Source: Glaciecola amylolytica
GTDB lineage: Bacteria; Bacteroidota; Bacteroidia; Flavobacteriales_D; Crocinitomicaceae
Assembly: GCA_003856375.1 (NCBI GenBank)
Contig: CP034120.1
Span: forward strand, 868,001-932,000
Direction: 5' to 3'
Length of the DNA: 64,000 nucleotides
How positions within the stretch are numbered: the stretch's first letter is position 1; each line of letters opens with the position of its first letter. This document shows, one piece after another, positions 23,954 through 46,023 of the stretch. Under the pieces are notes generated by a model. That model did not search any database and was not told the origin of the DNA. It was given only the letters and a program-made list of their open reading frames with translations. The position numbers were made by a program, and so were the translations under genes.

Positions 23954-25597
23954 TCATTTCGAGTAACGCAGTTTATTGAGAAAAGACAACAAGATGAAAT
24001 TATCGGCCCCGTAGCTCAGCTGGATAGAGCAACTGCCTTCTAAGCAGTAGGTCTTTGGTTCGAATCCAAACGGGGTCACCAAGAGGGACAAACACGATTC
24101 ATATCGAGTTTGTCCCTTTTTCTTTTCCACGAAACGCCCGGTATGTTTGAGAATTAGAGCGACCATTTCATTTAATTGGGTGTTTCGAACTTCATTGTTT
24201 TGAAATTGGAACTTTCCGACAAAGATGGAAACAAGTATTTCTTTTTTTTGCTGTAAGCCCCCGTTTCTGTACCATTCAGCAACATTTGATAGAAAAGAAA
24301 TCTTTTCTTCTAATTCATTCGCGAATTTGTTTTTTCCGTCCTTTAGTTTGTTTAATTCCGTTTTAACTTCCATGATCTGTGTTTCAATCATGGGCTTTAG
24401 TTCTGTGTAATCCGATGCGGTGATTTGTCCTGCAATGAATGTATTTTGCAAATTGCTTTTTCGTTCTTCCAGCTTCTCTAATTTCTGTGATAAGATTGAA
24501 ATTTGTTGCGCCCTGTTTTGTGTTGATCCTTTCATTTCCTTTTCTAAAATCAGATTGTAGAGTGCTTCAACTTCTTCGATAATCTGAATGGTAGAAATCA
24601 AAGCTTCTATTTCATTGTTAGCAACGTCAGCACGATAACGCTCTTTTCCACACTTCATGCAATGGTAGTAATAATGCTTTGAACCGTTTCTTCCCTTAGA
24701 TGCACTTCCCGTAACATGGTTTCCGCACTTAGAACAGCTTAAAAAGCCCCTTAGGGGCAATTCTTCGCGTTCACAAATGGTTGAATGCTTATTGAGTTTC
24801 TTTTTCTTCCCTGCAAGGATTATTTGAACCTGATAAAATAATTCTTCGCTTACTATTCCATCATGTAACCCGTCAACAATTAATTCGGGTTCATCCTCAA
24901 AAGCCGGAATTAAAATTTTCCCCATATAAACAGGATTCCGTACCATTCTGCAAAAGTTTGATCTGGAAACCTTGAATCCTTTTTCCCCCATTTCAATTCG
25001 AATATCGTTCAGGGTTCTGATACCCTTTGCGATTTCTTCAAAAGCTTCTTTCAGCAAATGTGAATTGTCAGCGGGTACAATAATCGGCTTATTAGCTTCA
25101 TCCCTGCGGTTCTTATAACCTATTGGGGCGTTGCGAACCCAACGCCCCAATTTGTTAGCCCCGCGCATTCCTGAACGTACTTTTTGCGAACGAATATCGT
25201 TATCTACTTCGGGAAGTGTCAAGTAAATCGAAAGCATCACTTTGTTTTGCGGAACACTAAAATCAATCGGTTGCATGATCGCTTGCGCTTCAATGTTCCA
25301 TTTTTTAAGCTTTCCTAGCATTTCATAAGCATCGGGTGCATTGCGAGAAAACCGATCCCAGGAAACAAACAAAATGTAATCAATTGATTTATGGTTTGTT
25401 TTCGCATAGTTTAAGAACTCTTTGAACTGTGGGCGGTCAAAGCTTTTTGCGCTGTGATCGTCCACATAATGTTTCAAAATTTCAATGTTTCTGCTTTCAC
25501 AGTACTTTTCTAGCTGTTCTTTTTGGACTCCTAAACTATATCCTTTATCTGCTTGTTCATCCGTACTAACACGGGTATATAAAACTGCTGTTTTCAT
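23954..25597 (-). CDS. Large serine recombinase (integrase of the element)
   Basis: 547 residues. N-terminal resolvase domain AVLYTRVSTDEQ with nucleophile Ser11 and SWDRFSRN; recombinase domain (MVRNPVYMGKI); zinc ribbon with CSKCG and CMKCG; coiled-coil insertion (about 350-440). The C-terminal tail from about residue 500 (VTPFGFEPKTYCLEGSCS...) is antisense to tRNA-Arg (24005-24081), so the frame crosses the attachment site and ends in host DNA at 23954. Should catalyse integration at tRNA-Arg. Overlaps the upstream gene by 4 bp. Confidence 0.93.
   Translation of the reverse strand: MKTAVLYTRVSTDEQADKGYSLGVQKEQLEKYCESRNIEILKHYVDDHSAKSFDRPQFKEFLNYAKTNHKSIDYILFVSWDRFSRNAPDAYEMLGKLKKWNIEAQAIMQPIDFSVPQNKVMLSIYLTLPEVDNDIRSQKVRSGMRGANKLGRWVRNAPIGYKNRRDEANKPIIVPADNSHLLKEAFEEIAKGIRTLNDIRIEMGEKGFKVSRSNFCRMVRNPVYMGKILIPAFEDEPELIVDGLHDGIVSEELFYQVQIILAGKKKKLNKHSTICEREELPLRGFLSCSKCGNHVTGSASKGRNGSKHYYYHCMKCGKERYRADVANNEIEALISTIQIIEEVEALYNLILEKEMKGSTQNRAQQISILSQKLEKLEERKSNLQNTFIAGQITASDYTELKPMIETQIMEVKTELNKLKDGKNKFANELEEKISFLSNVAEWYRNGGLQQKKEILVSIFVGKFQFQNNEVRNTQLNEMVALILKHTGRFVEKKKGQTRYESCLSLLVTPFGFEPKTYCLEGSCSIQLSYGADNFILLSFLNKLRYSK
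24005..24081 (+). tRNA. tRNA-Arg (UCU) with encoded CCA; integration target
   Basis: Acceptor GGCCCCG pairs with CGGGGTC; anticodon loop CTTCTAA gives TCT; T-loop GTTCGAATC; discriminator A, then CCA at 24079-24081. It is the only one of the three tRNAs here with an encoded CCA, which could mean its 3' end was supplied by the element. The antisense strand is the C-terminal coding region of the recombinase. Confidence 0.95.
24084..24121 (+). terminator. Terminator after tRNA-Arg
   Basis: 10-bp stem AGGGACAAAC (24084-24093) with 24108-24117, T-run after. It lies inside the recombinase coding region on the other strand. Confidence 0.85.
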
Positions 25598-25932
25598 TTT
25601 TCGTTTATTATTAATTCTGAACTATAAAATCCTAATTCACCGCGAACAAGAATTAATTCGATTTCTTCGAAAATTTTTGGTGAAATGATCACTAAACAAT
25701 CAATTGGTTTTTTAGCAAATGCACTATAAAAAAACAATCGTAGAGCGAGGTTTAACCCTTCATAATTTTTTTGTTCCCCTTTGGGAATTTCATAATCTGA
25801 ATATTCGTCAATTACCTCAATTCCATTACTTGTGCAATATTCCTGTAACTTTTCTTTCTGATCCGCTAAAGAATTATTTTGATGCTCAATTTCTCCTTTA
25901 GGAGCGCGCATATACAAAACTGCTCTTTTCAT
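25594..25932 (-). CDS. Small recombinase-like protein lacking the catalytic serine
   Basis: 112 residues. The first 50 residues line up with the recombinase start next door (AVLYMRAPKGEIEHQNNSLADQKEKLQEYC versus AVLYTRVSTDEQ...GVQKEQLEKYC), but position 11, Ser in the recombinase, is Pro, and the WDRFSRN arginine motif is absent. It keeps the size of a resolvase catalytic domain only. ATGA overlap with the recombinase start and with the gene upstream. Possible partner, regulator or directionality factor; decay of a duplicate is the alternative, but the frame is intact. Confidence 0.75.
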   Translation of the reverse strand: MKRAVLYMRAPKGEIEHQNNSLADQKEKLQEYCTSNGIEVIDEYSDYEIPKGEQKNYEGLNLALRLFFYSAFAKKPIDCLVIISPKIFEEIELILVRGELGFYSSELIINEK

Positions 25933-26201
25933 CTTTCTAATTCTGAATTTCCGAAATCTCCTCCTGTATTCAATGCTTGAAAATCTTCATCGTCGATTTG
26001 TTCCGTGAGTTCTTCGGGTGTAAATCGGTCTGTAATTTTCAACAATTCATCCTCATTTTTTTCAAGCTTCTTTCTCATGAACTTTCGCAAATCATAATCA
26101 ATTTCCCAATTGTCCCCATTCTTTTCAATCCATGCAAAATCCTCAATGATTGATTTTGATAATCTGGCGATTTTATCGCGTGTTCTTTTGTGAATTTTCA
26201 T
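25929..26201 (-). CDS. Small hypothetical protein in recombinase operon
   Basis: 90 residues from the ATG at 26201 (a TTG start at 26225 is possible). Basic, helical N-terminus (MKIHKRTRDKIARLSKSI) and an acidic C-terminus. Overlaps the recombinase-like gene by 4 bp and the 57-residue ORF upstream by 29 bp. Could be a DNA-binding accessory; unproven. Confidence 0.6.
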   Translation of the reverse strand: MKIHKRTRDKIARLSKSIIEDFAWIEKNGDNWEIDYDLRKFMRKKLEKNEDELLKITDRFTPEELTEQIDDEDFQALNTGGDFGNSELER

Positions 26202-26346
26202 AATTCTCACTTTTAATTTTTTCAATCCATTTTTTGTTCATTCGTGCGATTTTGGTTAACCAATCGCGGAGCTGTTCAATTTGTTCATCTGTGTATTTCT
26301 CGAACTTCTTTCCGAGTACTTTTCTACACTCAATTACTGTTAGCAT
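26173..26346 (-). CDS. Small hypothetical protein (57 aa), first of recombinase operon
   Basis: ATG at 26346, stop at 26173. Helical, basic, with FEKYTDEQIEQLRDWLTKIARM. A frame of this size overlapping the next gene in a different frame is common in compact phage operons. No family recognised. The promoter would lie in 26347-26410, but no clear -7 box was seen. Confidence 0.5.
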   Translation of the reverse strand: MLTVIECRKVLGKKFEKYTDEQIEQLRDWLTKIARMNKKWIEKIKSENYENSQKNTR

Positions 26347-26419
26347 ATTTTGAACGTTTGCAATGAAGCTATTTGGGAAAACTCCGACCCGTGCTATTTT
26401 TGTTAAAAAACCAAAAAAG

Positions 26420-26477: not shown

Positions 26478-27566
26478 TTATTCCCAATCCGGTGAGCTAA
26501 TCACCGAATGAGCGCACAAATACCCGTGCAAGTAAGAATCCATGACCATAGAGCGCGAAAAATCCAATGCTCCTGAAAGTTCCCGTTTGGGTTCAATAAT
26601 TTTCACGTTGAACCGCCGGAGTTTGCGACCGCTTTCAGAAAACAATTCGACGTTTTTTCTTTCGGCTTGCTTTACTAATCGGTTTACCCGTAGAAATTCA
26701 CTTGTATCGGTATCTCCGATTTCGCTCAATGCTATATCGTAAATACTTCGCTGAATAACATTCAGGATGTTCGGTTTTTCATTCATGGTTGGAACTAGTC
26801 CGGTTCGGGTCGAAATGATCAGGAAATTGTATTCATCCGAGTCGGCTTGATCCAAAACATAGCGAACCGCATCGCCCAGGGGATTAATATTCCGCAATCC
26901 TCCGTCTATTAAGTTGGAAGTTTCGAATTGAGTCGTTGAAATTCGATCCACGGGCGACCAAATCAGGGGCATAGTGGATGAAGCTAACACTGCCTTTTGA
27001 AACTCTGAATTGTCACGAAAATCGGTGTGTTTGGCACTGTAATAATTCCCGTCGGTCAGCGACACAAAACCGGCTTGAAAAACCTCGCTTTTGATGTCTT
27101 TTAACTGAACAAGCAATTTTACTTTCTCATACAAGGGTGTATTATCAGCAATTGCGGTAAGGTTCTTTACTTTGTCAACGATCTTTTGAAGTACTTTTTG
27201 TCTTGAACCTTTGAACAATAAACCAACCTTTTGAAATGCCGAAATGTCGGATAGTAGAAACTTCCCAAGGCGTTCTATATCAAGGGTGGTTTTGTTGTTC
27301 TCAGTCTTTAGAAAATCGCTTAAATAGACCTCTTCAGGGCGACCCGCAATGTGATTCCACATTTCATTAAGTTCCTTGTTCTTTCCCGATGCGATTAATG
27401 CACCGTTTAGTGCTCCGGCTGACACACCAAAAACGGCGTACGGAATTCCGATTTTTTCAACTCCATTTCCGAAGTTGATTCCATCCTTTAAGATTCGTTG
27501 CCACGCACCGACCTGGAACGCTCCTCTGGCTCCGCCACCTGTGAGGATAACTATTAATTTTTTCAT
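26478..27566 (-). CDS. Patatin-like phospholipase
   Basis: 362 residues from ATG at 27566 (a longer frame to 27650 would overlap the upstream gene). Oxyanion motif LTGGGARGAF (residues 10-15), nucleophile elbow GVSAG (Ser49), DGG (Asp221): the complete Ser-Asp dyad. No signal peptide. Hydrolyses acyl chains of phospholipids. As last gene of the phage-like structural operon it could act on host membranes at entry or release, or on an internal lipid layer; the stage is inference. Confidence 0.9.
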   Translation of the reverse strand: MKKLIVILTGGGARGAFQVGAWQRILKDGINFGNGVEKIGIPYAVFGVSAGALNGALIASGKNKELNEMWNHIAGRPEEVYLSDFLKTENNKTTLDIERLGKFLLSDISAFQKVGLLFKGSRQKVLQKIVDKVKNLTAIADNTPLYEKVKLLVQLKDIKSEVFQAGFVSLTDGNYYSAKHTDFRDNSEFQKAVLASSTMPLIWSPVDRISTTQFETSNLIDGGLRNINPLGDAVRYVLDQADSDEYNFLIISTRTGLVPTMNEKPNILNVIQRSIYDIALSEIGDTDTSEFLRVNRLVKQAERKNVELFSESGRKLRRFNVKIIEPKRELSGALDFSRSMVMDSYLHGYLCAHSVISSPDWE

Positions 27567-27582
27567 GATGTTTGATTTAGGA

Positions 27583-28236
27583 TTACTTGATATTGTTCTG
27601 AATGACCATGAAAAACGGGGTTTTGTTTCCGGAAAGTTTTCCGTTTTCATCGGTCTTGTAGGTAGAAACTTTTACTTTGTTGCTGACATTTCCACCAATC
27701 GCCTTGATGTAATTTTTTCCGGTTTCAATGACTAATTCGCCATGTGAAGCAAAAAAGCCGTTCGTGTCGTAGCCTTTTCCGCTTTCGCGAGTAAATACTA
27801 CTAAGTCACCGATCTTTGGTGCGTATTCAGATACGCGGAAACCTCGAAGCGGTGCATTTTGATTATTGCGGTTTGCTTTGGCTCGTTGAAAGTACCCGCT
27901 GTGTCCTGTTGAATAAGGAAATTGATCTTTCGCTCCTGCTTTGTAGAATAACCAGGAAATAAATGCACTCGACCAAGGGTAAGAAGATTGAACAGAGGAA
28001 TTTTGCATTTGTGAAGCAGAAAAATTAATCCCTACTGCTTTCCAATACTCTAATAAGTAAGAACTTGCTTTTTCAGATAGTTCGGTGATTGTTTTCCATT
28101 TTTCGGCTTCACCTTTAGCTATTCGGATCAGTCGTTTTTTAAACGAATCCCTGAAGTAAAAGTAAAACCCGACTGCTATTCCAGCACTTAATAAAATAAC
28201 AATACTCGAAATCAGAATGATACGACGCGTTTTCAT
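27583..28236 (-). CDS. Membrane-anchored DUF2272-like protein, possible cell-wall hydrolase
   Basis: 217 residues from the ATG at 28236 (MKTRRIILISS). One N-terminal membrane segment (7-27), a helical linker, then a CHAP/NlpC-like domain: PWSSAFISWLFYKAGA, FPYSTGHSGYF, PKIGDLVVF and SHGELVIETG, matching what I know of DUF2272. No clear catalytic Cys is present where CHAP enzymes have one: a Ser (PWSSAF) is at that site. 16 bp before the phospholipase. Confidence 0.75.
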   Translation of the reverse strand: MKTRRIILISSIVILLSAGIAVGFYFYFRDSFKKRLIRIAKGEAEKWKTITELSEKASSYLLEYWKAVGINFSASQMQNSSVQSSYPWSSAFISWLFYKAGAKDQFPYSTGHSGYFQRAKANRNNQNAPLRGFRVSEYAPKIGDLVVFTRESGKGYDTNGFFASHGELVIETGKNYIKAIGGNVSNKVKVSTYKTDENGKLSGNKTPFFMVIQNNIK

Positions 28237-28474
28237 TATTTTAGCGCAAAATTTTTTGGTGGTTCTTTCAAGAAAAGAAATAAGGCGGGAGATCGGAACA
28301 CGCTCAAAGGGTATCATCTAGTCCAAACTTGTGCAGCATTCTATCCCCGCCTTGCCTAAAACCCTCCCTATTACCTAATTCCCTGGGCTAAAGGCGACCT
28401 AAAATTATTATTCCTTATGGTTTGAAATCCTCAAAAAGAGTTAAACAGTGTTAGAAGTTCACAAATGAATCTTT

Positions 28475-28753
28475 CTATTTCTCTGCTTCAATAAGGCGGT
28501 CAATCTTCTTTTCTATTCTTTGAAGACTTTCTTTAATTTGTTTAATTTCCGTATCGTCAACCGCGCCCTTTAGTTCAAGGGTTTGAATCCTTGTAAGGGT
28601 TTGATCAATTTCAGTCTGCTGTGAAATATTGGCTTGGTGGTTTTGCTCTGTCATCGCAGTGGTTCGAAAGTAAAATGGTACGACCGAAAAAACTGCTCCG
28701 GTCAGGATAAGTAAAACATTCTGTTTGACATTATCCCATAATTTGCCGTCCAT
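28475..28753 (-). CDS. Small membrane protein with coiled coil, holin-like size
   Basis: 92 residues from ATG at 28753 (a GTG start at 28780 is possible). One membrane segment (about 11-30: NVLLILTGAVFSVVPFYF) and a C-terminal coiled coil (TRIQTLELKG ... LQRIEKKIDRLIEAEK). Starts 4 nt after the preceding stop. Size and topology would suit a holin or spanin-like component; unproven. After its stop, 28237-28474 has no gene and nothing I recognise. Confidence 0.65.
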   Translation of the reverse strand: MDGKLWDNVKQNVLLILTGAVFSVVPFYFRTTAMTEQNHQANISQQTEIDQTLTRIQTLELKGAVDDTEIKQIKESLQRIEKKIDRLIEAEK

Positions 28754-28757
28754 TGTT

Positions 28758-29201
28758 TCAGGTGTTATCAGTGTCAGCACCGATTAACAGCGATACAGGC
28801 AACGCGTCCATTTTTACGTTTTGCTTGTATATGGCTATATACGGTACACCTAATCCATCTTCTTGTTTAGTGTAGAGCAATAAAAAAAGCTCTTTTGAAG
28901 ACGCAACCTGAAATTCTTTCATAGAAGATACAAAAATGTTTTTGATTACGTCCCGAACATACATTCCGACTATCATACTCATACTTTTACCGCCTCCGGC
29001 GTTAATGATTTCGTTCAAGTCTGATCTTTTAACCAGGACTGTCTTATCGAATAATGCAAAAATTGGTTTTGAGGTTGGATTTTCCAGATCAATTCGAATG
29101 TTAAATTGCGTTTTTTCGATCTTGTTTTCTTCTGCAAGCGTGTGAACTACCTTTTCACACACCTGAACAAGCATTGCTTGTGCTTCTTTAGGGTTAATCA
29201 T
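28758..29201 (-). CDS. Hypothetical soluble protein, element operon
   Basis: 147 residues from ATG at 29201 (MINPKEAQAM). Mixed alpha/beta, no membrane segment. Similar in length, order of secondary structure and last third (KELFLLLYTKQEDGLGVPYIAIYK) to the product of 29215-29649 (ISLVCYQSEKAQCPCIGILR), so the two may be diverged duplicates. Overlap with neighbours shows one operon. Confidence 0.6.
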   Translation of the reverse strand: MINPKEAQAMLVQVCEKVVHTLAEENKIEKTQFNIRIDLENPTSKPIFALFDKTVLVKRSDLNEIINAGGGKSMSMIVGMYVRDVIKNIFVSSMKEFQVASSKELFLLLYTKQEDGLGVPYIAIYKQNVKMDALPVSLLIGADTDNT

Positions 29202-29214
29202 GATTTCTGTGATT

Positions 29215-29649
29215 TTAGTTTTGCTGTTCACTTTCAAGTTGAATTGCTTCAATGACTTCTGAAAGCTTTAGTACTGTATATGTTTTTTCGTCCCGCAGGA
29301 TTCCGATACAAGGGCATTGCGCTTTTTCCGACTGATAACACACCAGGGAAATTCGAGCCGGATTATCAATCTTAGTTTCCATTAAAAAGGCGTTGTGAAC
29401 CGCTTTAAAAAGTTTTTCAAGTGCTATCGGGCTGAATCGTAGACCGATCATTTTATGAGTTAAAATGTCAGAAAGTCCAATCTCAAATTGAGGGATGGCG
29501 TTTTGACACAGTTGAAGGAGTATCTTTCCTTTTTCGAAAATCCGCACACTCATAGTCATTTGAATCGGCGGAATTTTGTATTTCACACACAGGGAAAAAA
29601 GAGATTCCCGAAACGTGCGGTTAATTTGTTCTGTGCTTAGTCCTTTCAT
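29215..29649 (-). CDS. Hypothetical soluble protein, possible paralogue of next gene
   Basis: 144 residues from ATG at 29649 (MKGLSTEQINRTF); an upstream extension to 29832 overlaps the LEA-like gene and is not favoured. No signal or membrane segment. Function unknown. Begins 12 nt after the preceding stop. Confidence 0.6.
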   Translation of the reverse strand: MKGLSTEQINRTFRESLFSLCVKYKIPPIQMTMSVRIFEKGKILLQLCQNAIPQFEIGLSDILTHKMIGLRFSPIALEKLFKAVHNAFLMETKIDNPARISLVCYQSEKAQCPCIGILRDEKTYTVLKLSEVIEAIQLESEQQN

Positions 29650-29660
29650 GATTTGAAGTG

Positions 29661-30149
29661 TTAGGGCAAAAACCACGATAAACGACCATTGAACCGAACC
29701 GGAAAACGTGAGATTTTCAGGAACGAGGTCTTTGCGGATAGTTTGCCTTTGATTAAAACCGGAAGATCTCCGAGGGCGGTTGTTGATGTTTGCGAATAAA
29801 GCGGAGCTACTTTCTGAGTCAGATCGTTCCAAGCGAAACGCACGTCCAGGGGAATAACGCTTGAATTTTCAGCAAGGATGCTATAATGAGCCTTTGATGT
29901 GATGTCAGACACTTTGTATCCACCAACATAAAATTCATACTCCTGATTCCAAACCTCCAGGTTAAAGCCCGAAGGATTTGTGACAAGGAACGACACTCTG
30001 AATGTAACGCCGTCACTATCCAAGGATTGAATCGCATAACTAAGCACCTCGTAATTGACATTTTTCGAAATCGAGATTATGCCGTAAGTAGTTATACCAA
30101 TCAATCCGGCAATGGAAACAAGCGCTACCGGAATCCATACCTTTTTCAT
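29661..30149 (-). CDS. Membrane-anchored LEA14/WHy-like protein
   Basis: 162 residues. N-terminal membrane segment (about 5-27), then one beta-sandwich-like domain (VTFRVSFLVTNPSGFNLEVWNQEYEFYVGG ... AENSSVIPLDVRF) with the hallmark of LEA14-type domains (N-P-S-x-F next to a short beta-hairpin). ATGA overlap with the muramidase gene. Structural or spike-like role is possible. Confidence 0.65.
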   Translation of the reverse strand: MKKVWIPVALVSIAGLIGITTYGIISISKNVNYEVLSYAIQSLDSDGVTFRVSFLVTNPSGFNLEVWNQEYEFYVGGYKVSDITSKAHYSILAENSSVIPLDVRFAWNDLTQKVAPLYSQTSTTALGDLPVLIKGKLSAKTSFLKISRFPVRFNGRLSWFLP

Positions 30150-30751
30150 AACCCAATGAAAAAAAGTCCGATGCCTACCGCCAGAATTGCTGAATACAAG
30201 AGGATATTTGACGAACCGCTTTCGGGGCTGTATTGAATGCGATCAAGGCGGGTCAGCCAACCGTTTATATACTTTTTCTTAGGAGAAGTTTTATACCGGT
30301 TTGCGCGGGCTTCTTTTAGAGCGTCAAACAAATCCTTTTGATTCAATTTGTTCATCAGGTTAATTCCCTCGATAGTAAATACCTTATAGTAAATCAAAGG
30401 GTGTTTCAGTTTGGATAATGCTTTTTCAGCTAGAATCCGCATTCCACCAACGCCTTGATTTACTGCGCCATCGTAAAGGATTGTAGCGACTGACTGATTT
30501 TGAAGTTTATCAAAATTGTTCTTTTCCCAATAATTACGTTTTAGGATCAGTTCCGCAGTTGCACGGGATAAGTTTTTCATTTCTGATACCGTTGGGATTC
30601 TTCCCAGGAATCCGGCTAAAGTTGGTGCAGCGATTCCCCAATTTGTACCGATTAACGAACCCATGTACCAATTTCCGTCGTCGTCCGGATCGTTTTGATA
30701 ACCGCCTTCTATAAGTCCTACGATTTTTTGAGATTTTTCAAATGTTGCCAT
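30146..30751 (-). CDS. GH108-type muramidase with C-terminal membrane anchor
   Basis: 201 residues. GLIEGGYQNDPDDDG (catalytic Glu15), NWGIAAPTLAGFLGR and YDGAVNQGVGGM match glycoside hydrolase family 108, phage-type lysozymes that cut the MurNAc-GlcNAc bond. Unlike soluble endolysins it ends in a membrane segment (about 181-201), which suggests attachment to a membrane and a role in cell entry through peptidoglycan as much as lysis. Confidence 0.88.
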   Translation of the reverse strand: MATFEKSQKIVGLIEGGYQNDPDDDGNWYMGSLIGTNWGIAAPTLAGFLGRIPTVSEMKNLSRATAELILKRNYWEKNNFDKLQNQSVATILYDGAVNQGVGGMRILAEKALSKLKHPLIYYKVFTIEGINLMNKLNQKDLFDALKEARANRYKTSPKKKYINGWLTRLDRIQYSPESGSSNILLYSAILAVGIGLFFIGL

Positions 30752-30795
30752 GATATGAAGATTTAAATGGTTACTTGTCTGTGTGGTGAGGTTGA

Positions 30796-31799: not shown

Positions 31800-31803
31800 G
31801 ACT

Positions 31804-36723: not shown

Positions 36724-36814
36724 TAACTGCCCAGTAAACACAGTGCTTGTGGGGCAAATAAATGTTAATCTACTGATTTAGTGGATTATCAAAAAGGCAA
36801 AAAGTGGGCAGTTA
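36724..36814. promoter_or_regulatory. Split inverted half-sites TAACTGCCCA ... GTGGGCAGTTA
   Basis: TAACTGCCCA at 36724-36733 and GTGGGCAGTTA at 36804-36814 form an inverted pair 70 bp apart, in the region between the structural operon (starts 36652, minus) and the AbiC-like gene (36919, plus). The same arms, 6 nt apart, occur three times at 45.78-45.96 kb. A binding site of a phage regulator or a recombination site is possible. An AAACTTTG near-consensus -7 box for the structural operon lies on the minus strand near 36700. Confidence 0.5.
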
Positions 36815-36918
36815 AATTGTTAGACTTTCTTTTGAAAAAGAAAATAACACTGAAATTCAGTATAAATACGGTTGGTTTTGTATAATCTAGTAATTAGGTT
36901 TGCGCAAAAAAGACCATA

Positions 36919-38055: not shown

Positions 38056-38094
38056 AGGCGATAAAGAAATTGCCGATAGATTAATCAAATTAGG

Positions 38095-38964: not shown

Positions 38965-39048
38965 AGATCAGAAAATAGTAGCAATAATATACTGATTAAT
39001 CCCGGGGTTTACTAGGAGTTAACAAAATTAATGATTTTTGGATATTGA

Positions 39049-39786
39049 TTAATTACTAGCGAGTAATGAGTCTTTTACTCCTTTTGGCATTTTCCAGGAA
39101 TATGAAGTCGCAATTTTCCTAAAAGCGATTTTCCAATTTGGCGAGTTTGTCTCATAAAGTAATTCTTTTTGAGAATCGAGGTATTTGGCAATTTCATATA
39201 CCTGATGATACTGATTGTATGTTGCCTCACTTTGTTTAAAACAATATATAGCATTCTTTACATCTCTTTTCAATAAATAGAAAAAGCCTTGTTCTTCCCA
39301 AGCACTAGCTAGCTCAGATTTGGAGTTACTATTTGAAACAGAAACTAAAGGCGTTTCATACTGAGCCATTAATACCTCATTCTTTTGTCTTTGCTGTTCA
39401 GCTTTCGAAATCGTGTCAGGAATCTTTGCAAGTTTCAATTTTATAAATTCTTTGTAGTCCTTACTGATACTATCCCTATAAATTTCCCATCTTTCTCTTA
39501 GCCTTTCTGTGGGAGTAACGGTTGAAAAATATTGAGTCAATTTCCAGCGTTTTTCGATGTTGTCAGCTTCAAGAATAACGGCAACATACTTGTCATAAGC
39601 ATTCATTTCTTGGATTCCTGCTGCTCTTTCTCTAAAACCCTTCTCGATAATCATTGAAATTGAGACAAGAACTACACTTCCAATAAACCATTTAAACACT
39701 TCGACCTTTATCTTGAATTTCTCAAGTTTAAAGGCGTTTTCATCATGTGTAAGTTTTTCTTTTTCAGTTGTTGCGTTATTTTCCAT
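39049..39786 (-). CDS. Hypothetical membrane protein, cargo region
   Basis: 245 residues. Basic N-terminal region with one membrane segment about 29-49 (WFIGSVVLVSISMIIE), then a helical cytosolic or periplasmic domain. No family recognised. Follows the PLD-like gene on the same strand; 84-bp gap. Confidence 0.6.
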   Translation of the reverse strand: MENNATTEKEKLTHDENAFKLEKFKIKVEVFKWFIGSVVLVSISMIIEKGFRERAAGIQEMNAYDKYVAVILEADNIEKRWKLTQYFSTVTPTERLRERWEIYRDSISKDYKEFIKLKLAKIPDTISKAEQQRQKNEVLMAQYETPLVSVSNSNSKSELASAWEEQGFFYLLKRDVKNAIYCFKQSEATYNQYHQVYEIAKYLDSQKELLYETNSPNWKIAFRKIATSYSWKMPKGVKDSLLASN

Positions 39787-40468
39787 AAAGCGAATAGTGT
39801 TATAAGTATGGGGTTAATATAGTAAATTATTCATTTTGTTGATTTTACGTTGAAGCCTGTTTTTAATGACTTTCAATCATTCATTGATTCTTTGAAGTTT
39901 TCGACTCAATCAATTTTCGACAAAATTGACTTTCTGAGTCGGTTAATTGGGTATTTCGACTCGATCAATTTTTCTTTGTAGTCGACGGGGTGTTAAATGG
40001 GCAAAACTTTGGTCGGTTCCGAGCGGGGTTCGGGTCGGTTCCGGGTTGTATTGCATTTCGACAAAGGCGACTTTTCGAGTCCCGAATTTGACATTCCGAC
40101 TCGATTAATTTGTTTATTTGATCGACGAGATAGTGAGCATTCGAAACATCATTCTGTTTCGAGTGGGAATCGAGTCGCTTTCGGGTCGGATTGATTTCGA
40201 CGAAATTCACGTTCCGACTATATGAACCGACTTTACCGACCCTATCAGCGACTCAAAATTGACGATGAATAGCTTTGAACCCCAGTAAAACAAAGGGATT
40301 TGTAAAGAAATGTTAAAGTTGTTCGACAATGTAACAATTGAAAAAAAATGTCGTTGGAATTGATACCTAACGTGCAGAATCTTCGCACGTCCCCTAAATT
40401 AAAACGGGCAAGTCCAAACGCCCGATTCAAAGGCTATCGCATAGGTATTCATTTAAATTCTATGTGTT
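39787..40468. other. Gene-free stretch: putative origin with repeats
   Basis: No ORF with coding character in 682 bp. The middle, 39898-40254, holds the GACTCGATCAATTT-type repeats described separately; 40254-40468 holds an AT-rich zone just upstream of the replication-side genes. Confidence 0.6.
39898..40254. repeat. Iteron-like repeats TTTCGACTCGATCAATTTT
   Basis: Related units: 39898-39917 (TTTTCGACTCAATCAATTTT), 39955-39974 (TTTCGACTCGATCAATTTTT), 40094-40113 (TTCCGACTCGATTAATTTGT), an inverted GAGTCGGTTAATTGGG at 39936-39951, and many partial units (TTTCGAC, CGAGTCG, GGTCGGTTCC) up to 40254. Dense CGAC/GTCG motifs in an otherwise AT-rich region upstream of the phage plus-strand module suggest a replication origin or packaging site. 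Confidence 0.65.
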
Positions 40469-40621
40469 ATGGCAACATTCACAAAAAACAAGAAATCATT
40501 CTGCGGAATGAAAACCGGAATGGGAAACGTATGTCTTTCCGGCCGGAAAATCGGTGATCCAAATTCCCGAATCGAAAAAGGCGAGCAACTTAGTATCCAC
40601 CGCCATGAAATCAAGCAATAA
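40469..40621 (+). CDS. Small hypothetical protein (50 aa)
   Basis: ATG at 40469, stop at 40621, overlapping the next gene's ATG (40605) by 17 bp. Basic, with two Cys (KKSFCGMKTGMGNVCLSGRK). First ORF of the plus-strand module. A DNA-binding accessory is possible. Confidence 0.5.
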   Translation: MATFTKNKKSFCGMKTGMGNVCLSGRKIGDPNSRIEKGEQLSIHRHEIKQ

Positions 40622-42500
40622 CAGTGCGTATACCTTAGAAGAAATTCTGGCACTTTTTAACGAGGAACTTGTAAGCAATTGGACGAAATTAACCTCATTA
40701 ATCCGGGCTTATGAGGGGATTGGTTACGATGAAGCAAAAAGGAAAGCTTTAAACCTTCTCAAAAATGATGAAGCAGAGGAATACATTCAGCAAGTTCGCA
40801 GTGCTGTCAAAAGACAACAATCGGGTGAATCGAATTCTTTGCAACAAAAAACGGATCAGCCGGATAAGAAAACCGATCCGAAACCAGATCAGGATAATCC
40901 AAAGATTGGTTCGCTTGGAATAAAATTGAAAAATCAGAAAACGATTTATGAAAAGAATTATGAGCGACTAATGAAAATTGCTCCTGGATTGGAAGAACGA
41001 TTATTAAACTACAAGTCTTCTGACTATATCTACGGGAAGTCTGAAAGTACCGGATATATGGATTTCACGTTGGAGGTTTTAGATCGTGATAAAACAGGTT
41101 TTTATATTTCTATCACCCATTATTACAAGCAACACGGGGATTTAGTACCTGATCCTGATATGGAAATTTTAGTAAGGCTTGAAAACAAAACTGTCGAAGC
41201 ACTTCATTTTCAAGATTGGATGCGTTACCACGAGGTTTACGATGATAAACGCAAACGTACAATGGTAAACACCAAGCAAAAGGACTCACAAAACAAGTTT
41301 TTGCAAGATTGGTTTAGAAACCTCAAAAATCAGGGGCATGTAATTGAATGGAAAGACGATGATGATTCTACACCATCGAGTGAGATCATCGACCATTACA
41401 AAAAGGAAAATGTTCCCCAGGAAACAAAACTTCATATTGTGCCACCTGTTGAAGAACCAAAAAAAGAGAAGGATGAACCGAAACAGGAAACGGAGCAGAA
41501 ACAGGATGAAAAGCCAAAAGAAACGTCTGACGAACCCGAATTAGCAAAAATAATTTCGCTCAATCCTGGTCTCACTTTGGAAGAACAAAAACAGGTTATT
41601 GAACGATTTATTGGCGTTGTTTCTGCAATTAAGAAGAAGACGAAAAATATTGCGATGCTAGACGCATTGAATATTTTCAAAGAAGGGAAAGCAATACCTT
41701 ATCTTCTTGATGCTTTAGACAATGTAAAGGCAAGGGATTACAACCATTTGTTGGAATTGAATTATCTCCGGTTGAATTTAGTCGTTCCCAACCTTTTAGA
41801 AATGCTTGCACAAGAAGACGGAGTTATCAGGTTGGTTTCTTCGAAAACAAAAACAGCCTTCCGAATTGAGCTTGGTGACGAACGAAAAGAAAATGTTGTT
41901 GTCCTGGGAATTCACCAAATGAATAAGAAAAAGCCCGAACCGACTTTATTAGTCAAAATCCAAAAAGACAAGGGGACAATTGCAAGTGACCTTTCTATCA
42001 ATGGTTTTGCGGGTTTAACGGATTTCAATGCTGATGCGCAAAGCAAATATTTTGAACCGAAATACGAATCTGCTTTAGGCTTTGAAAGATGGCTGAAATA
42101 TCTGGTTTTGCAGGAGTTTAAACCGCTTTTGGTTCAACTGAAAAAGGTTGAAAATGTTCCTGTCCCTGAAACTGAACCGGAAGAAATTCCAAGAGAAGAA
42201 CGAAAATACAGTAAAAACTATATCAATGCTGGGATTCCACACATGGAACCAGGAAAAGGGTGGTTAACTGAACAACATAAAAAGCAAGGTATCACCCAAG
42301 AAATGATTGATTGGGTTAATGAGCATCACACAGGTTTGGTTGCCATTCCAAGAAAAAAGGCAATGGTATACAATACGGTAGACAAAGAAGCAGATTTGAG
42401 AAAACAGGCGAAAGGTCCAGGGCTAAGATTATCAGCAAATTACTTAATGTATCCCGAAGGACGAAGTAACCGATCAGACAGAACAAGAAACGGATATTAA
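40605..42500 (+). CDS. Large hypothetical protein with two similar modules, plus-strand element module
   Basis: 631 residues from ATG at 40605 (a start at 40554 would add 17 residues). N-terminal helical domain (LEEILALFNEELVSNW), a module with FYISITHYYKQHGDLVPDPDMEILVRLEN, a Lys/Glu/Pro-rich linker (about 270-320), a second module (LLVKIQKDKGTI ...), and a C-terminal tail (VNEHHTGLVAIPRKKAM ... GLRLSANYLMYPEGRSNRS) that resembles tails seen in Bacteroidota mobile-element proteins. Replication or DNA-processing role is inferred from position only. Confidence 0.6.
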   Translation: MKSSNNSAYTLEEILALFNEELVSNWTKLTSLIRAYEGIGYDEAKRKALNLLKNDEAEEYIQQVRSAVKRQQSGESNSLQQKTDQPDKKTDPKPDQDNPKIGSLGIKLKNQKTIYEKNYERLMKIAPGLEERLLNYKSSDYIYGKSESTGYMDFTLEVLDRDKTGFYISITHYYKQHGDLVPDPDMEILVRLENKTVEALHFQDWMRYHEVYDDKRKRTMVNTKQKDSQNKFLQDWFRNLKNQGHVIEWKDDDDSTPSSEIIDHYKKENVPQETKLHIVPPVEEPKKEKDEPKQETEQKQDEKPKETSDEPELAKIISLNPGLTLEEQKQVIERFIGVVSAIKKKTKNIAMLDALNIFKEGKAIPYLLDALDNVKARDYNHLLELNYLRLNLVVPNLLEMLAQEDGVIRLVSSKTKTAFRIELGDERKENVVVLGIHQMNKKKPEPTLLVKIQKDKGTIASDLSINGFAGLTDFNADAQSKYFEPKYESALGFERWLKYLVLQEFKPLLVQLKKVENVPVPETEPEEIPREERKYSKNYINAGIPHMEPGKGWLTEQHKKQGITQEMIDWVNEHHTGLVAIPRKKAMVYNTVDKEADLRKQAKGPGLRLSANYLMYPEGRSNRSDRTRNGY

Positions 42501-42514
42501 CTAAACTGAAAATC

Positions 42515-42844
42515 ATGGAATCAACACAAAATAATGAATACTTCTTTGGTGAAGATATGCCACACCTGGTATTCATGGACGAACACGATTTAACGGCTGA
42601 AAGGTTCAGCGAATCATTACAGCAAAAACTTGAATTATTTGATGATGCGTTTGAAAAGGCAATGACTGACGGGATTGTTGACAAACAAGAATACTATTCA
42701 TTACACACATTTTCTACGGAGCTGAAAGTACTCATGTTGAATGAATTGAATTCGCGCAAAATAGATGCAGAAACAGGAGCTTTAATAACCATCTTCACAG
42801 CGTTAGGCGCAACAATTGGACTTGGTAAACTTTTCAGATCATGA
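42515..42844 (+). CDS. Small hypothetical protein with hydrophobic C-terminus
   Basis: 109 residues. Acidic N-terminus (MESTQNNEYFFGEDMPHLVF), helical middle, then a hydrophobic end (LITIFTALGATIGLGKLFRS) that could insert in a membrane. Follows by 14 bp and overlaps the next gene by 4 bp. Confidence 0.6.
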   Translation: MESTQNNEYFFGEDMPHLVFMDEHDLTAERFSESLQQKLELFDDAFEKAMTDGIVDKQEYYSLHTFSTELKVLMLNELNSRKIDAETGALITIFTALGATIGLGKLFRS

Positions 42845-43329
42845 ATATCCCTAGCAATTTTAACATGCAGACAAAAGAGTTTGTCCAGGTGTTTACAAAG
42901 TTCTGTTTACTGTTTGCCAAATTTGGGGCTAAAGAAATGAATGACTATTTGGATAGTATTCCGGTTAAAATGGGTAAAACCGATGGAAGACACACAGGAG
43001 CTTTTATCATTCATAAAGTTCTAATGGAATACGAACAAATCGAAAAGCCGTTTTCCAAATTCGAGTTGTACACCTCCAAGGAAAGACGGCAGGAACTTGC
43101 AGAAGCCAGAATGCTTGTGTGTGTGTTTGCACACACCTATTTAAAAATGGATAACGGGGAAATTTCCTCTATGTTCAACAAAAGTCGTGATTTCGCCAAA
43201 CGTGCGCTTTCTGACTTTTCGAAACTCGATGAAGCAATTCCGGCGCACCGCAAACTAATAGAAAAGTATAAGAAAATTGACACGCTTATAAGTGCTTACG
43301 TCAATTTCAAACCTAAATCAATAAAATAG
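42841..43329 (+). CDS. Hypothetical protein with DnaA-domain-IV-like helix-turn-helix
   Basis: 162 residues. The region about 83-125 (EARMLVCVFAHTYLKMDNGEISSMFNKSRDFAKRAL) resembles the DNA-binding C-terminal domain of DnaA, in which an AR...Y helix is followed by EIG..F..RDHsTV. The remainder is helical. It could bind the repeats at 39.9 kb. Analogy only; no P-loop domain present. Confidence 0.5.
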   Translation: MNIPSNFNMQTKEFVQVFTKFCLLFAKFGAKEMNDYLDSIPVKMGKTDGRHTGAFIIHKVLMEYEQIEKPFSKFELYTSKERRQELAEARMLVCVFAHTYLKMDNGEISSMFNKSRDFAKRALSDFSKLDEAIPAHRKLIEKYKKIDTLISAYVNFKPKSIK

Positions 43330-43331
43330 TC

Positions 43332-44261
43332 ATGGACTTTTTTTATAAACGTGCTAGTGTCGGAAGATACAGCACAGACGAACAAATGATGCTAGATGCT
43401 ATTAAAAGCATTATTGAGCAAAAACAAATACCTATTGAACAAATCCCGGACTGTCATTCTTTGGACGAATTAATTGAACTCAAGCAGTTTTTAGAAATCT
43501 ATGAACATGAACCGGAGTTTTTAGAGGATCACCAGGAACAGCCAACACCGGAACCGGAATCAATAGACGAACCAGAACCGGAGTTTAAAGAAGAAATAAC
43601 GGCAGATATAACCGATTCGAGTTTTTCGGAGGAAAAACCGATCGAGTCGGAAACTCCTGATCTTTTTATTTCAGATAATTACAGTCCTTTTGCTGATCCG
43701 ATCATTGAACGGTCATACAATCAGGCACAAGGACCAATCACAAATTCTGATAATGACGGAGAAGAACAATTGAACCTGGAAGAATCGCAAGGCAACCCGC
43801 TTTCGGATCTCCCACCACATACCAAACGGAGAGCCGCCGAACAAACAGCGGATACACTTTTGAAAGGCTATGCACAAATAGCACCAATCCCGTTTAAATG
43901 GTGGGCAAAATTCCCTGAAGCCAAAATTGAAAAGATGGCTTTTAACGGTCAGATTGATCTATCTCTTGAAGTTTCTGAAGGAGTGACTTTTGACGATTAT
44001 ATCAAGCAGACAAACGCACAGTTAGACGAAATTTTCGAGGTTGACTCCGATACGCTTGACGACATCCGCGAACCGCTTATTGAGGTGTTGATGGAACAAA
44101 ATATGCAACTGACACCAACACAACGATTATTAGCTGCGGTCTTTTCTCACGTAATGCAAATGTTTACTGTTGCTTTTAAACTTAGTCAGCAGAACAACCG
44201 CATTTTGTCTTACCAAAAACATTTGACTTTTTTAATGCAAGGCGTAAGGTCGCAAAATTAA
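43332..44261 (+). CDS. Acidic hypothetical protein
   Basis: 309 residues. Helical N-terminus, a long acidic/Pro-rich region (about 60-160), then a folded C-terminal half with WWAKFPEAKIEKMAFNG and a hydrophobic helical end. The stop is 30 bp before the ATPase. Possibly a packaging or replication partner of the ATPase; no homology recognised. Confidence 0.6.
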   Translation: MDFFYKRASVGRYSTDEQMMLDAIKSIIEQKQIPIEQIPDCHSLDELIELKQFLEIYEHEPEFLEDHQEQPTPEPESIDEPEPEFKEEITADITDSSFSEEKPIESETPDLFISDNYSPFADPIIERSYNQAQGPITNSDNDGEEQLNLEESQGNPLSDLPPHTKRRAAEQTADTLLKGYAQIAPIPFKWWAKFPEAKIEKMAFNGQIDLSLEVSEGVTFDDYIKQTNAQLDEIFEVDSDTLDDIREPLIEVLMEQNMQLTPTQRLLAAVFSHVMQMFTVAFKLSQQNNRILSYQKHLTFLMQGVRSQN

Positions 44262-44291
44262 CGACCGTGAATTTCCTAAATCAAATCTCCC

Positions 44292-45152
44292 ATGTCACAC
44301 AAATGGAGAGAAGCAAAATTAATCATGGTGGCAGGACGAAAAGGGGTTGGAAAAACCTTTCAGACTCTTTGCCAGATAGCAGATTATCTAAAGACCACCA
44401 CAGCGAAACTAGGTAGAAAGGTTCTCATTTTTGACGTTAACAACGAATTTGGAAACGTCCAAGCAGATCACGGGAACGCGAAATTTCCGAACATCGGGTT
44501 AATTAAACTTTCCCAGGTTCCGGCGTATGCTAAGATAACGCGCCCGTTTGCAAAACGTGTTTCGATCTTCAAAGATGACGGACAAAGAATGACGCTTTCT
44601 GAAATGGCACAAGCTTTAGGTTTTATCCTGGAGCATTACCGGAACGGACTTCTGTTGATCGAAGACATTAGCAAGTATATTACCGATTCCTTGCCTGGTG
44701 ATTTGATCGGTGCGATCTGTACACAAAGACACGTTTCTGTTGATGTAATTATCCATGTTCAGACAGTCGGAAAACTTTTTCATCCGAAGCTTTGGGGGAA
44801 CTGTAACGAGATTCGTTTACACCGAACAGATGACACCGTAGAACGGCACAAAAACAAGATCAGCGGAAACCTGGAACACTTGTTAATCATGGAAAAACTG
44901 ATCGAACTGAAATTCAAAGCCGGAGACAACCGTTTTTGCTGTTATCTGAATAAAGATTCTGGTAAGATCCGTGGACGGTTCACATTGAACGACTTCAAAC
45001 AAGCAGTTGAAGACTATCTTTCCTCGAACTATCAACGTATTTTAAAACCGCTCCTGGACAAACGACATATCTACACAGGTGAGCGAATGTACAGGAATCA
45101 AAAAGAAGCTGTTGACGACTACATGAGGTATATGATGAGTGAATATTTATGA
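44292..45152 (+). CDS. P-loop ATPase, packaging-type (HerA/FtsK-like)
   Basis: 286 residues. Walker A GRKGVGKT (15-22), Walker B LLLIED (120-125), IFDVNNEFG after the first strand, and RLHRTDDTVERHKNK toward the end. This is the size and motif pattern of genome-packaging ATPases of membrane-containing tailless phages (PM2 P9, PRD1 P9 lineage); Zot-like ATPases of filamentous phages are the main alternative, but no membrane segment is present here. Last gene of the plus-strand module. Confidence 0.8.
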   Translation: MSHKWREAKLIMVAGRKGVGKTFQTLCQIADYLKTTTAKLGRKVLIFDVNNEFGNVQADHGNAKFPNIGLIKLSQVPAYAKITRPFAKRVSIFKDDGQRMTLSEMAQALGFILEHYRNGLLLIEDISKYITDSLPGDLIGAICTQRHVSVDVIIHVQTVGKLFHPKLWGNCNEIRLHRTDDTVERHKNKISGNLEHLLIMEKLIELKFKAGDNRFCCYLNKDSGKIRGRFTLNDFKQAVEDYLSSNYQRILKPLLDKRHIYTGERMYRNQKEAVDDYMRYMMSEYL

Positions 45153-45188: not shown

Positions 45189-45740
45189 TTAATAAGGTTC
45201 AGCAGAAACTATTTTATAGTTAGAGTAACTAACGTTATCCCACCAATGACCAATTTTGTGTTTAAATGAAACTGAACCATTGGACGAAACAAATTCCATT
45301 ATTGTAAACGTTTCCTGACCTAAAAGAAGATCAGTCTTTGAATAAAAATAAACAGTCAACTTTACATTTTTAAAACCTGCAACCATAGCCGAATTACTTA
45401 TAGAACCTTCAATTATTGTATTTCCGATCATGGTTACTTTATAGCTGTAATCAGCCGTAAGATATTTATTTGGCGATTTTATTTCCTTTGCATATATCTT
45501 TCCCAAAGCCCCATCGCCTTCCGCAAGATCTGAATCATTTTCCGGCGGTGATTGTTTTTCTTTTACTTCCTGGTAGTTCGTTGTATTATGATAGGATTGT
45601 TTTTCATCTAATGCTTTTTCTTTCAGTTCTAATTCACGTTCCCGTAAATCTAATTCACGTTCTCTTATTGAGTTGTCGTTTCCACATCCAAGGATTGTTA
45701 AGAAAGGAATCAGGTAGGTAATAAATAGTAGTTTATTCAT
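45189..45740 (-). CDS. Lipoprotein with charged coiled-coil N-terminus
   Basis: 183 residues. Signal peptide ending LTILGCGN (lipobox Cys about residue 19), heptad-like charged repeat (ERELDLRERELELKEKALDEK), then a beta-rich domain. Function unknown. Lies beyond the packaging ATPase, so probably cargo of the element or a flanking gene. Confidence 0.65.
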   Translation of the reverse strand: MNKLLFITYLIPFLTILGCGNDNSIRERELDLRERELELKEKALDEKQSYHNTTNYQEVKEKQSPPENDSDLAEGDGALGKIYAKEIKSPNKYLTADYSYKVTMIGNTIIEGSISNSAMVAGFKNVKLTVYFYSKTDLLLGQETFTIMEFVSSNGSVSFKHKIGHWWDNVSYSNYKIVSAEPY

Positions 45741-45777
45741 TTAATGTACTTTTTTCAAATCTAACAAAAAATAATAA

Positions 45778-45955
45778 AAAGCTAACTGCCCACTAACAGG
45801 TGGGCAGTTAGCTTTTTTTTGTTCCAAAATGTCTTTTTTGGTGGAAAAATGGTTCAAAAAAAATTAGTTGCCCACTAACAGGTGGGCAGTTAGTATTTTT
45901 TAGCCTAAAATCATCGAAAAAAAAGTTAGTTGCCCACTTACTAGTGGGCAATTAG
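45778..45955. repeat. Three tandem palindromes TAACTGCCCAC-N6-GTGGGCAGTTA
   Basis: Copy 1 at 45778-45815 (stem extended to AAAGCTAACTGCCCAC), copy 2 at 45864-45893, copy 3 at 45926-45955; loop TAACAG, TAACAG, TTACTA. Copies 2 and 3 have compensating or wobble changes in the arms while keeping GCCCAC/GTGGGC. Copy 1 is followed by a T-run, so each may be a bidirectional terminator; half-sites at 36724 and 36804 suggest a protein-binding or recombination role as well. Confidence 0.75.
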
Positions 45956-45970
45956 TGAAAAATAGAAAAA

Positions 45971-46023
45971 GGGGTGCGGTAATCACCCCCTTTATTATTT
46001 ACCGGCTCCGACGTGCAAAACTC
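45971..46023. repeat. Hairpin and conserved tail, copy 1
   Basis: GGGGTG-CGGTAAT-CACCCCC hairpin followed by TTTACCGGCTCCGACGTGCA. A related hairpin plus tail (TTTACAGACTACGATTTGCA) is at 47698-47762, bracketing a 1.7-kb block with three minus-strand genes. Confidence 0.5.

Follow-up and report, generated by a model that had tools for sequence, protein, structure and literature searches.

A 64,000-base stretch of the genome of Glaciecola amylolytica (family Crocinitomicaceae), bases 868001-932000 of CP034120.1 (a single contig of 4.606 Mb) and referred to here as the window, carries an integrated element that begins at 24082, directly past the 3' end of a tRNA-Arg gene. Judged from its genes, this element is, with a probability of roughly three in four, an apparently intact provirus that belongs to an undescribed lineage of tailless viruses of bacteria, with a capsid protein of a single beta-sandwich, a genome-packaging ATPase of the P23-77 type and a probable inner membrane. 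A first-pass annotation of the same DNA had proposed a tailless, membrane-containing temperate phage with a double jelly-roll capsid; gene content, synteny, the ATPase and the lack of Pfam tail families speak for the phage type, while the double jelly-roll was contradicted by modelling. In the literature covered (bioRxiv and most subscription journals lay outside), no description of this lineage was recognised.

Packaging-type ATPase

The rightward early block encodes a P-loop ATPase, recognised as a packaging-type enzyme in the first-pass annotation.

44292-45152, plus strand: putative genome-packaging ATPase (P23-77/IN93-like), 286 aa (hhalign; Walker A)

The Walker A motif is present in all 54 rows of the family alignment. 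When the family profile was compared by hhalign with single-sequence targets, it aligned with P23-77 ORF13 over 183 columns (Prob 89.5) and with IN93 ORF11 over 149 columns (Prob 82.2); as controls, seven reversed sequences gave values of at most 0.3, and the best of 34 other open reading frames (ORFs) of the window, an ABC exporter, gave 12.6 over 30 columns. Against a reference set of 194 ORFs from eight tailless viruses, from which an overlap filter had removed the P23-77 ATPase ORF, the top five targets were, in order, IN93, PM2 P9, HCIV-1, STIV and PRD1 P9. All three of IN93 ORF11, the STIV ORF and PM2 P9 are packaging ATPases, although the first two carry the annotation 'hypothetical' and the third 'structural'. 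By sequence, the ATPase points to the P23-77 type. In a midpoint-rooted tree, with long branches flagged as unsafe, the five provirus ATPases form one clade (100/99) adjoining the large relatives G244 and G245 (99/95). No tblastn match to the window ATPase was found at E 1e-3 in a collection of 50,697 phage records.

Capsid candidate

Source counts, here and below, come from an iterated profile search over 2305 ORFs, in which families rich in transmembrane (TM) stretches may be over-counted.

35688-36410, minus strand: putative major capsid protein, 240 aa, with a disordered N-terminus and one beta-sandwich of ~155 residues (models; 42 sources)

This product is a putative major capsid protein on the basis of its position, conservation and predicted fold class. 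In the full-length model the ordered part covers roughly residues 53-210 and the ends are disordered, with a mean predicted local distance difference test (pLDDT) score of 68 and a predicted template modelling (pTM) score of 0.61, and a model of the trimmed core (pLDDT 83, pTM 0.78) shows nine strands in a single beta-sandwich of ~155 residues. With the full model, Foldseek retrieved from the PDB many single jelly-roll capsids (picornaviruses, satellite tobacco mosaic virus, cucumber mosaic virus), with 2e-3 as the best E value of the PDB search, and from BFVD nine matches below 1e-3, again with low TM-scores, the best being a picornavirus capsid domain at 1e-4. The core model gave weak, mixed beta-sandwich matches, including nucleophosmin, carbohydrate-binding proteins, phage tail proteins and a few plant- and insect-virus capsids; 'jelly-roll' is a likely label for the modelled fold at the level of a class, as distinct from a homology. 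The double jelly-roll proposed in the first-pass annotation was absent from both models, and thus from the operon as far as it was modelled (the product of 35688-36410 alone); to that extent this part of the annotation fails under the refuting condition it had set itself. Large products of the late operon that lack a TM helix are otherwise limited to a 264-aa HExxH protein and a patatin, which leaves no good second capsid candidate.

The candidate was found in 5 of 240 genomes of the host family and in 7 of 399 from the host's order, those five included. Its profile matched 2 of 395 genomes in a phylum sample (its own and a weak 71-aa fragment) and 2 of 395 in a class sample (its own and G039). 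Scans of viral contigs found nothing with the window capsid sequence alone, or with alignment A2, in the latter case presumably because the confirming query was the diverged window sequence; a second IMG/VR scan, with a capsid alignment of the large viruses (A7), gave 60 loci. The capsid protein of a large relative (locus L048) had no tblastn match at E 1e-3 in the phage collection.

The window has one gene of the capsid family. Two adjacent full copies occur in the relative L035, further single-domain paralogues are carried by the records of large relatives, and the 102-kb contig G241 has two tandem capsid-like domains in one frame of ~400 aa (L075:17225-18415) plus several single-domain paralogues. 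Acidic, FDG/DG-rich N-terminal motifs, seen in G099:C1:48134-57629 and alignment A2, are common to the capsid protein and several other proteins of the large relative, and are a possible assembly-targeting or cleavage signal.

Recurrence in sister proviruses and large uncultured relatives

Beyond the ATPase and the capsid candidate, the core genes are:

42841-43329, plus strand: DnaA-C-terminal-like protein (Pfam Bac_DnaA_C 7e-4, below the family cut-off; 53 sources)
43332-44261, plus strand: 309-aa protein, p309 (52 sources)
34405-34974, minus strand: 189-aa TM protein, p189 (38 sources; several matches per record, partly perhaps via TM stretches)
32734-33528, minus strand: 264-aa HExxH putative metalloprotease (34 sources)
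32268-32744, minus strand: single-TM protein, p158 (18 sources)
29661-30149, minus strand: LEA_2-domain protein with an N-terminal TM helix (Pfam LEA_2 1.6e-6; 16 sources)
29215-29649, minus strand: 144-aa protein, p144 (15 sources)
28758-29201, minus strand: 147-aa protein, p147, of the p144 profile family (one family across proviruses and large viruses)

The same Bac_DnaA_C family is matched at 5e-6 and 5e-12 in two large relatives. HExxH is conserved in all 34 rows of the protease family, with an ExxAD stretch further downstream in the 12 rows printed, and the protein would be a zinc-type protease acting in capsid maturation or entry.

The gene order occurs in other genomes, being kept in four further complete proviruses: one in G048, two in G049 and one in G253 (G253b). 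In G048 and both G049 copies, relatives of most genes of 26478-45152, the cargo slot aside, follow one another in the order seen in the window. At the DNA level, the G048 element (118262-138835) and one G049 copy, G049a (1592195-1611493), are similar from the tRNA as far as the stop codon of the ATPase gene. This similarity is interrupted by gaps at the cargo slot and inside the DUF6908 gene, and a short similar stretch follows again past the stop. In G253, one copy has both operons, with a patatin gene right of the ATPase, and a second lacks the early half in the 40 kb covered; the late operon is present in the 18 kb covered of G261, and G039 retains a remnant. Ratios of nonsynonymous to synonymous substitution rates (dN/dS) relative to G048 are 0.04-0.20 for 11 of the 13 genes compared; the remaining two have a saturated dS. 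These ratios are rough estimates, with dS mostly above 1. Since the order recurs in four complete proviruses and dN/dS is low, the element is not a chance assembly.

A search with the ATPase alignment found 49 loci, in 47 IMG/VR contigs and two contigs of metagenome-assembled genomes, some near-identical and not all independent, on contigs of up to 102,228 bases. The iterated profile search tied the core families of the window to these contigs. The order DnaA-like protein, p309, ATPase on one strand is found in 47 of the 49; L028 and L029 showed neither of the first two genes in the stretches covered, and the record of L029 (G245) has a DnaA-like gene ~29 kb downstream of the ATPase. A capsid-family gene lies downstream of the ATPase in 35 loci, and wherever both are present the ATPase comes first (35/35). 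Among the 14 loci lacking it, 13 stretches stop within 1,818 bases of the ATPase, and L008 has its capsid gene ~20 kb away on the same record. The capsid gene precedes p189 (31/31) and the protease (28/28), the protease precedes LEA_2 (7/7) and LEA_2 precedes p144 (6/6); in L052, p158 is ahead of the protease. Relative to the large relatives, the early block is inverted in the proviruses.

Late operon and tail-family scans

The late operon runs on the minus strand from 36652 down to 26478. A TM helix was predicted in 14 of its 19 genes (one helix in 13, two in one) by our own hydropathy script, applied to the late-operon genes without a control set; this matches the dozen or so single-pass membrane proteins of the first-pass annotation and is consistent with an internal lipid membrane. 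The GH108 muramidase named there was also found by Pfam. The remaining genes are:

36431-36652, minus strand: 73-aa single-TM protein, first gene of the operon (synteny; hydropathy)
34971-35630, minus strand: 219-aa protein, p219, with a C-terminal TM helix (profile search; hydropathy)
34043-34411, minus strand: single-TM protein (hydropathy)
33886-34056, minus strand: 56-aa single-TM protein (hydropathy)
33531-33881, minus strand: single-TM protein (hydropathy)
31804-32271, minus strand: single-TM protein p155 (17 sources, with possible cross-matches between TM-rich families; hydropathy)
31221-31835, minus strand: single-TM protein (hydropathy)
30796-31218, minus strand: single-TM protein (hydropathy)
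30146-30751, minus strand: GH108 muramidase with a C-terminal TM helix (Pfam 7e-19; hydropathy)
28475-28780, minus strand: 101-aa one-TM protein, possible holin or membrane protein (weak matches only: XhlA 0.004; PHROG)
27583-28236, minus strand: membrane-anchored DUF2272/CHAP-like peptidoglycan hydrolase (Pfam DUF2272 3e-22; TM)
26478-27566, minus strand: patatin-like phospholipase (Pfam 6e-21; relative right of the ATPase in G253b)

No terminase, portal, HK97, tail-tube, tape-measure or baseplate Pfam family was found at E 0.1 in 30 window ORFs, a scan that left out short ORFs including 26173-26346, 33886-34056 and 36431-36652; the absence of such genes had been noted in the first-pass annotation, and some PHROG labels, given below, are to the contrary. 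The provirus has no gene of tape-measure size. Likewise, no terminase, portal, HK97, tube or tape-measure family was found at E 1e-4 in 162 proteins of large relatives, made up of 68 of the 145 ORFs of G241 (102 kb), 51 ORFs of the 64-kb G244 and 43 from 60 kb of G099, a contig of 102 kb from a host-family genome. The Pfam families that do occur in these relatives include lysozymes, holin, RecT, RusA, methylases and polyvalent domains.

Early operon and cargo slot

The early operon spans 40554-45152 on the plus strand. The slot that separates it from the late operon is GC-poor (31-34%, compared with ~38-43% on the flanks), and of its genes the phospholipase D (PLD)-like one alone has a relative in a sister element, that of G048. 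The slot and the other early genes are:

36919-39786: variable cargo slot, with an AbiP/putAbiC-like gene (36919-38055, plus strand), a PLD-like gene (38095-38964, minus strand) and an unassigned gene (39049-39786, minus strand) (Pfam, PADLOC)
40554-42500, plus strand: DUF6908 protein (Pfam 4e-24; synteny)
42515-42844, plus strand: 109-aa early protein (synteny)

Integration site and right end

The serine integrase gene abuts tRNA-Arg, as first annotated, and the features of the two ends are:

24005-24081, plus strand: tRNA-Arg(tct), attachment site; the element starts directly past its 3' end (ARAGORN)
24085-24121: stem-loop with a T-run at the 3' end of the integrase gene, on the element side of the left junction (sequence comparison)
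23954-25597, minus strand: large serine integrase, its open frame crossing tRNA-Arg (Pfam Resolvase 8e-26, Recombinase 5e-9; PHROG integrase 6e-77)
25594-25932, minus strand: second, short resolvase-N-like protein (Pfam Resolvase 3e-5)
47017-47415, minus strand: helix-turn-helix (HTH) regulator, possible repressor near the right end (Pfam HTH_3 7e-13; NCBIfam RstR 7e-10, below cut-off; relatives in G048 and G049a)

Sister elements start at the 3' end of tRNA-Arg(acg) (G048 and one G049 copy) or tRNA-Phe (the other G049 copy), and in these three and the window element a stem-loop with a T-run comes immediately after the tRNA, three different tRNAs being involved. In eight genus relatives, similarity at tRNA-Arg stops at 24079-24085, ahead of the stem-loop; G055 alone has an additional, tRNA-Arg-like second copy, similar up to 24129, which may be a scar left by a related element. 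Where G049 carries its copy at tRNA-Phe, its similarity to the relative G056 ends at the tRNA. In G253b another gene occupies the place of the integrase, and a tRNA-Met, a candidate attachment site, lies ~1.3 kb left of the first element-side gene. The window element has both the integrase and the defined left junction at a tRNA gene that characterise a temperate, tRNA-integrating provirus.

In the empty-site comparison, synteny with relatives breaks at the tRNA and the right flank found no counterpart. If the HTH gene is part of the element, the right end would lie between 45152 and ~47.5 kb, or perhaps further. Right of the ATPase, a GCCCAC...GTGGGC hairpin occurs three times (45773-45950), and is likewise repeated there in G048 and G049a. 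A 20-base motif, TAACCTAACCACCTAAATCA, follows terminator-like hairpins at 46986-47005 and 16481 and occurs exactly three times in the genome, against no copy of its reversed control; its 18-base core is present on the right side of all four sister elements. The motif at 46986 was dropped as a feature of the element because further copies occur elsewhere in the host genome (16481 and one further place).

Two further observations concern the same tRNA. At 62370-62465 there is a decayed tRNA-Arg-like copy, broken by a perfect palindrome, which possibly marks where an older, larger island ended on the right, and 56612-57781 is 93% alike over 1171 bases in G058, there just past a second tRNA-Arg-like copy, which suggests shared cargo at a tRNA-Arg hotspot. 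If the island here is older, larger or layered, it could reach out to 57.8 or 62.5 kb.

Contrary evidence and alternative explanations

A number of results weigh against the interpretation as a tailless provirus of a separate lineage. The element is known here from genes alone, with no membrane or virion observed, and the large relatives are uncultured IMG/VR contigs with neither a completeness estimate nor an assigned host. Only the DnaA-C-like protein was recognised as a replication protein in the window, Pfam scans of its ORFs showing no Rep family, and repeats of the tRNA ends, sought near the element's end as a right attachment site, gave only short matches; the right end is unproven, as the first-pass annotation had said. 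For the capsid candidate, TM-scores of the full model in the PDB were at most 0.25 by query and 0.36 by target (best 50 rows); the core model had one PDB match below 1e-3, to a non-capsid protein, with TM-scores of at most 0.31 and 0.43. Neither a P23-77-type nor a double jelly-roll capsid was among the best 50 PDB rows of either model, no PDB sequence matched below E 0.1, and the capsid profile matched none of the 194 reference ORFs, known capsid proteins included. The ATPase profile gave values of ~33 over 37-48 columns with PM2 P9, HCIV-1 ORF13 and the STIV ORF and 6.1 over 19 columns with PRD1 P9, short matches that may reflect little beyond the common P-loop, and the SNJ1 packaging ATPase gp23 was unmatched (Prob 0.1). 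PHROG, run on 20 window ORFs, labelled the CHAP-like protein 'baseplate hub/tail lysozyme' (6e-8), the ATPase 'terminase large subunit' (5e-4) and the 101-aa protein 'pilot protein for DNA ejection' (6e-4) and 'major head protein' (0.044), and among the best 25 of 49 families for G241 and the best 25 of 40 for G244 there were fibre, tail-spike, baseplate-hub and 'virion structural protein' labels. In the window, the baseplate label is taken as a shared lysin domain and the others as chance matches or as reflecting a P-loop or coiled coil in common.

Of the alternatives, the strongest, though less likely than not, is that the element is a true, highly diverged member of the Helvetiavirae (Halopanivirales-like, with two vertical single jelly-rolls). 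Its ATPase is most similar to those of P23-77 and IN93, P23-77 has a similar order of ATPase, small capsid protein, small structural proteins and lysins, and the single beta-sandwich is near VP16 in size (173 aa). However, no similarity to VP16 or VP17 was found and the window has no second capsid-family gene, whereas L035 has two adjacent ones; the SNJ1 ATPase and the P23-77-type capsids went unmatched as described, and related contigs reach 102 kb compared with 16-31 kb. An unrelated second capsid protein may be present in the window element. On the reading preferred here, the lineage works like the Helvetiavirae yet is not an established member, a second capsid protein and capsid similarity not having been found.

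A double jelly-roll provirus like PM2 or FLiP, which host phylum, size class and membrane proteins would suit, and for which PM2 P9 ranks second of the 194 ORFs (over just 48 columns), is very improbable. The candidate has one beta domain, the capsid profile is unmatched by PM2 P2, PRD1 P3 and the FLiP capsid protein, and FLiP is without a packaging ATPase (PMC7654751, PMC5894146), while the window element has one. Hardly any weight falls on a non-viral integrative element, conjugative or otherwise, with surface proteins and an ATPase of the secretion type. The many single-TM proteins, the serine integrase, the polyvalent-protein domains in two large relatives and a chance-level Pfam match of p158 to TraI_2 (0.089) would agree with it, but no other relaxase, coupling-protein or type IV secretion system family appeared in the general Pfam and PHROG scans (best 25 PHROG families each for G241 and G244), the relatives are classed as viral contigs and carry holin, endolysin and fibre-like genes, and the ATPase matches that of P23-77 over its full length. 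Least probable is a tailed phage, or a satellite, so diverged that its terminase, portal and capsid lie beyond profile detection: the scattered PHROG tail labels of the window, G241 and G244 speak for it, but the HK97 capsid, portal, terminase and tail genes of Caudoviricetes were not seen by Pfam in the provirus or, for the families scanned, in the 162 proteins of large relatives, no gene is of tape-measure size, and the 286-aa ATPase has no nuclease domain visible to Pfam.

Proposed life cycle and wider lineage

For the tailless provirus, we infer the membrane, the role of the capsid candidate and the right end. Packaging, a single-barrel shell, a membrane bearing the TM proteins and peptidoglycan digestion would follow from the gene families and from P23-77-type viruses as a model, as described in the literature (PMC6414509, PMC5332951, PMC12642351). 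By recombination, the serine integrase would insert the genome, in circular form, at the 3' end of a tRNA gene, the left junction being visible by comparison. Upon induction, the rightward early block would yield the DnaA-C-like protein, which probably recruits host replication, p309 and the P23-77-type ATPase. The leftward late operon would yield one small single-beta-sandwich protein that forms the shell, single-pass proteins that probably sit in a lipid membrane beneath it, and the HExxH protease. The membrane-anchored GH108 and CHAP-like hydrolases may digest peptidoglycan at entry or exit, and the ATPase may pump the genome into a membrane-lined procapsid, while the slot between the operons appears to bear anti-phage-like cargo.

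A wider proposal, to which we give slightly less than even odds, is a new high-rank lineage of bacterial tailless membrane viruses with one shared morphogenesis module (DnaA-like protein, p309, ATPase, one single-barrel capsid protein, TM proteins, zinc-type protease and LEA_2). It would comprise temperate viruses of ~21-23 kb and uncultured, probably lytic ones on contigs of ~55-102 kb, some with several extra capsid-like domains, among them the tandem two-domain protein, which looks like a step towards a double jelly-roll. Such contigs far exceed the 9-31 kb of the eight tailless viruses used for comparison, and the module links a prophage of a sequenced bacterium to tens of metagenomic contigs of up to 102 kb that had no match in the phage collection. 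If true, this would add a new branch beside the single-jelly-roll viruses, with a host genome available, extend the known size range of tailless bacterial viruses upwards, and provide a natural test of the duplication of a single-barrel capsid towards a double-barrel one.

Neighbouring genes

To the right, 47843-56083 encodes a Grasp-with-spasm peptide system, with a small peptide gene, an ATP-grasp protein (TIGR04192, below cut-off), a SPASM maturase (TIGR04193, above cut-off), a peptidase-type ABC exporter and genes resembling, by eye, HlyD and TolC; relatives of four genes of this system come after the G048 element. A protein with a type-B sorting domain of the type IX secretion system (T9SS) is encoded at 61118-62236 (TIGR04131, 1.6e-12), T9SS being linked to the phylum Bacteroidota. 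Directly right of the window, type I restriction genes enclose a ThsA/SIR2-like defence gene (L093:351-6047).

Comparison with known tailless viruses

FLiP (Finnlakeviridae) shares a Bacteroidota host with the window element, and has an internal membrane and a lytic enzyme (PMC7654751). Its double-barrel capsid, 9.2-kb single-stranded DNA genome, putative rolling-circle protein and lack of a packaging ATPase differ from the single capsid domain, ATPase and ~21-23 kb of the window element, in which Pfam showed no Rep family. Among the 194 ORFs, the P9 proteins of PM2 and PRD1 (Corticoviridae, Tectiviridae) are the second and fifth best targets of the ATPase profile, over only 48 and 19 columns; both viruses have double jelly-roll capsids to which the capsid profile has no similarity. 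With a single-domain capsid candidate and no good second one, FLiP and PM2 are not likely to be the nearest relatives.

SNJ1 (Simuloviridae) and HCIV-1 (Sphaerolipoviridae) are described as tailless membrane viruses of 16-31 kb with single jelly-roll capsids and a packaging ATPase (PMC12642351; PMC5332951; PMC12643093), but they have archaeal hosts and two capsid proteins each, neither virus's being matched by the window capsid profile, and their ATPases score far below those of P23-77 and IN93. These last two (Matshushitaviridae, Helvetiavirae) differ from the window element in having two capsid genes rather than one, without sequence similarity between the capsids, and in lacking matches to the profiles of the HExxH protease, LEA_2, p309 and DnaA-C-like proteins; the window element, for its part, has a serine integrase acting at tRNA genes and relatives of up to 102 kb. 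They are also the viruses it most resembles: their ATPase is the best match of the window profile, their genomes are near in size (17-20 kb), IN93 has an integrase-like gene, and in P23-77 the ATPase is followed, as here, by a small capsid protein, small structural proteins and lysozymes.

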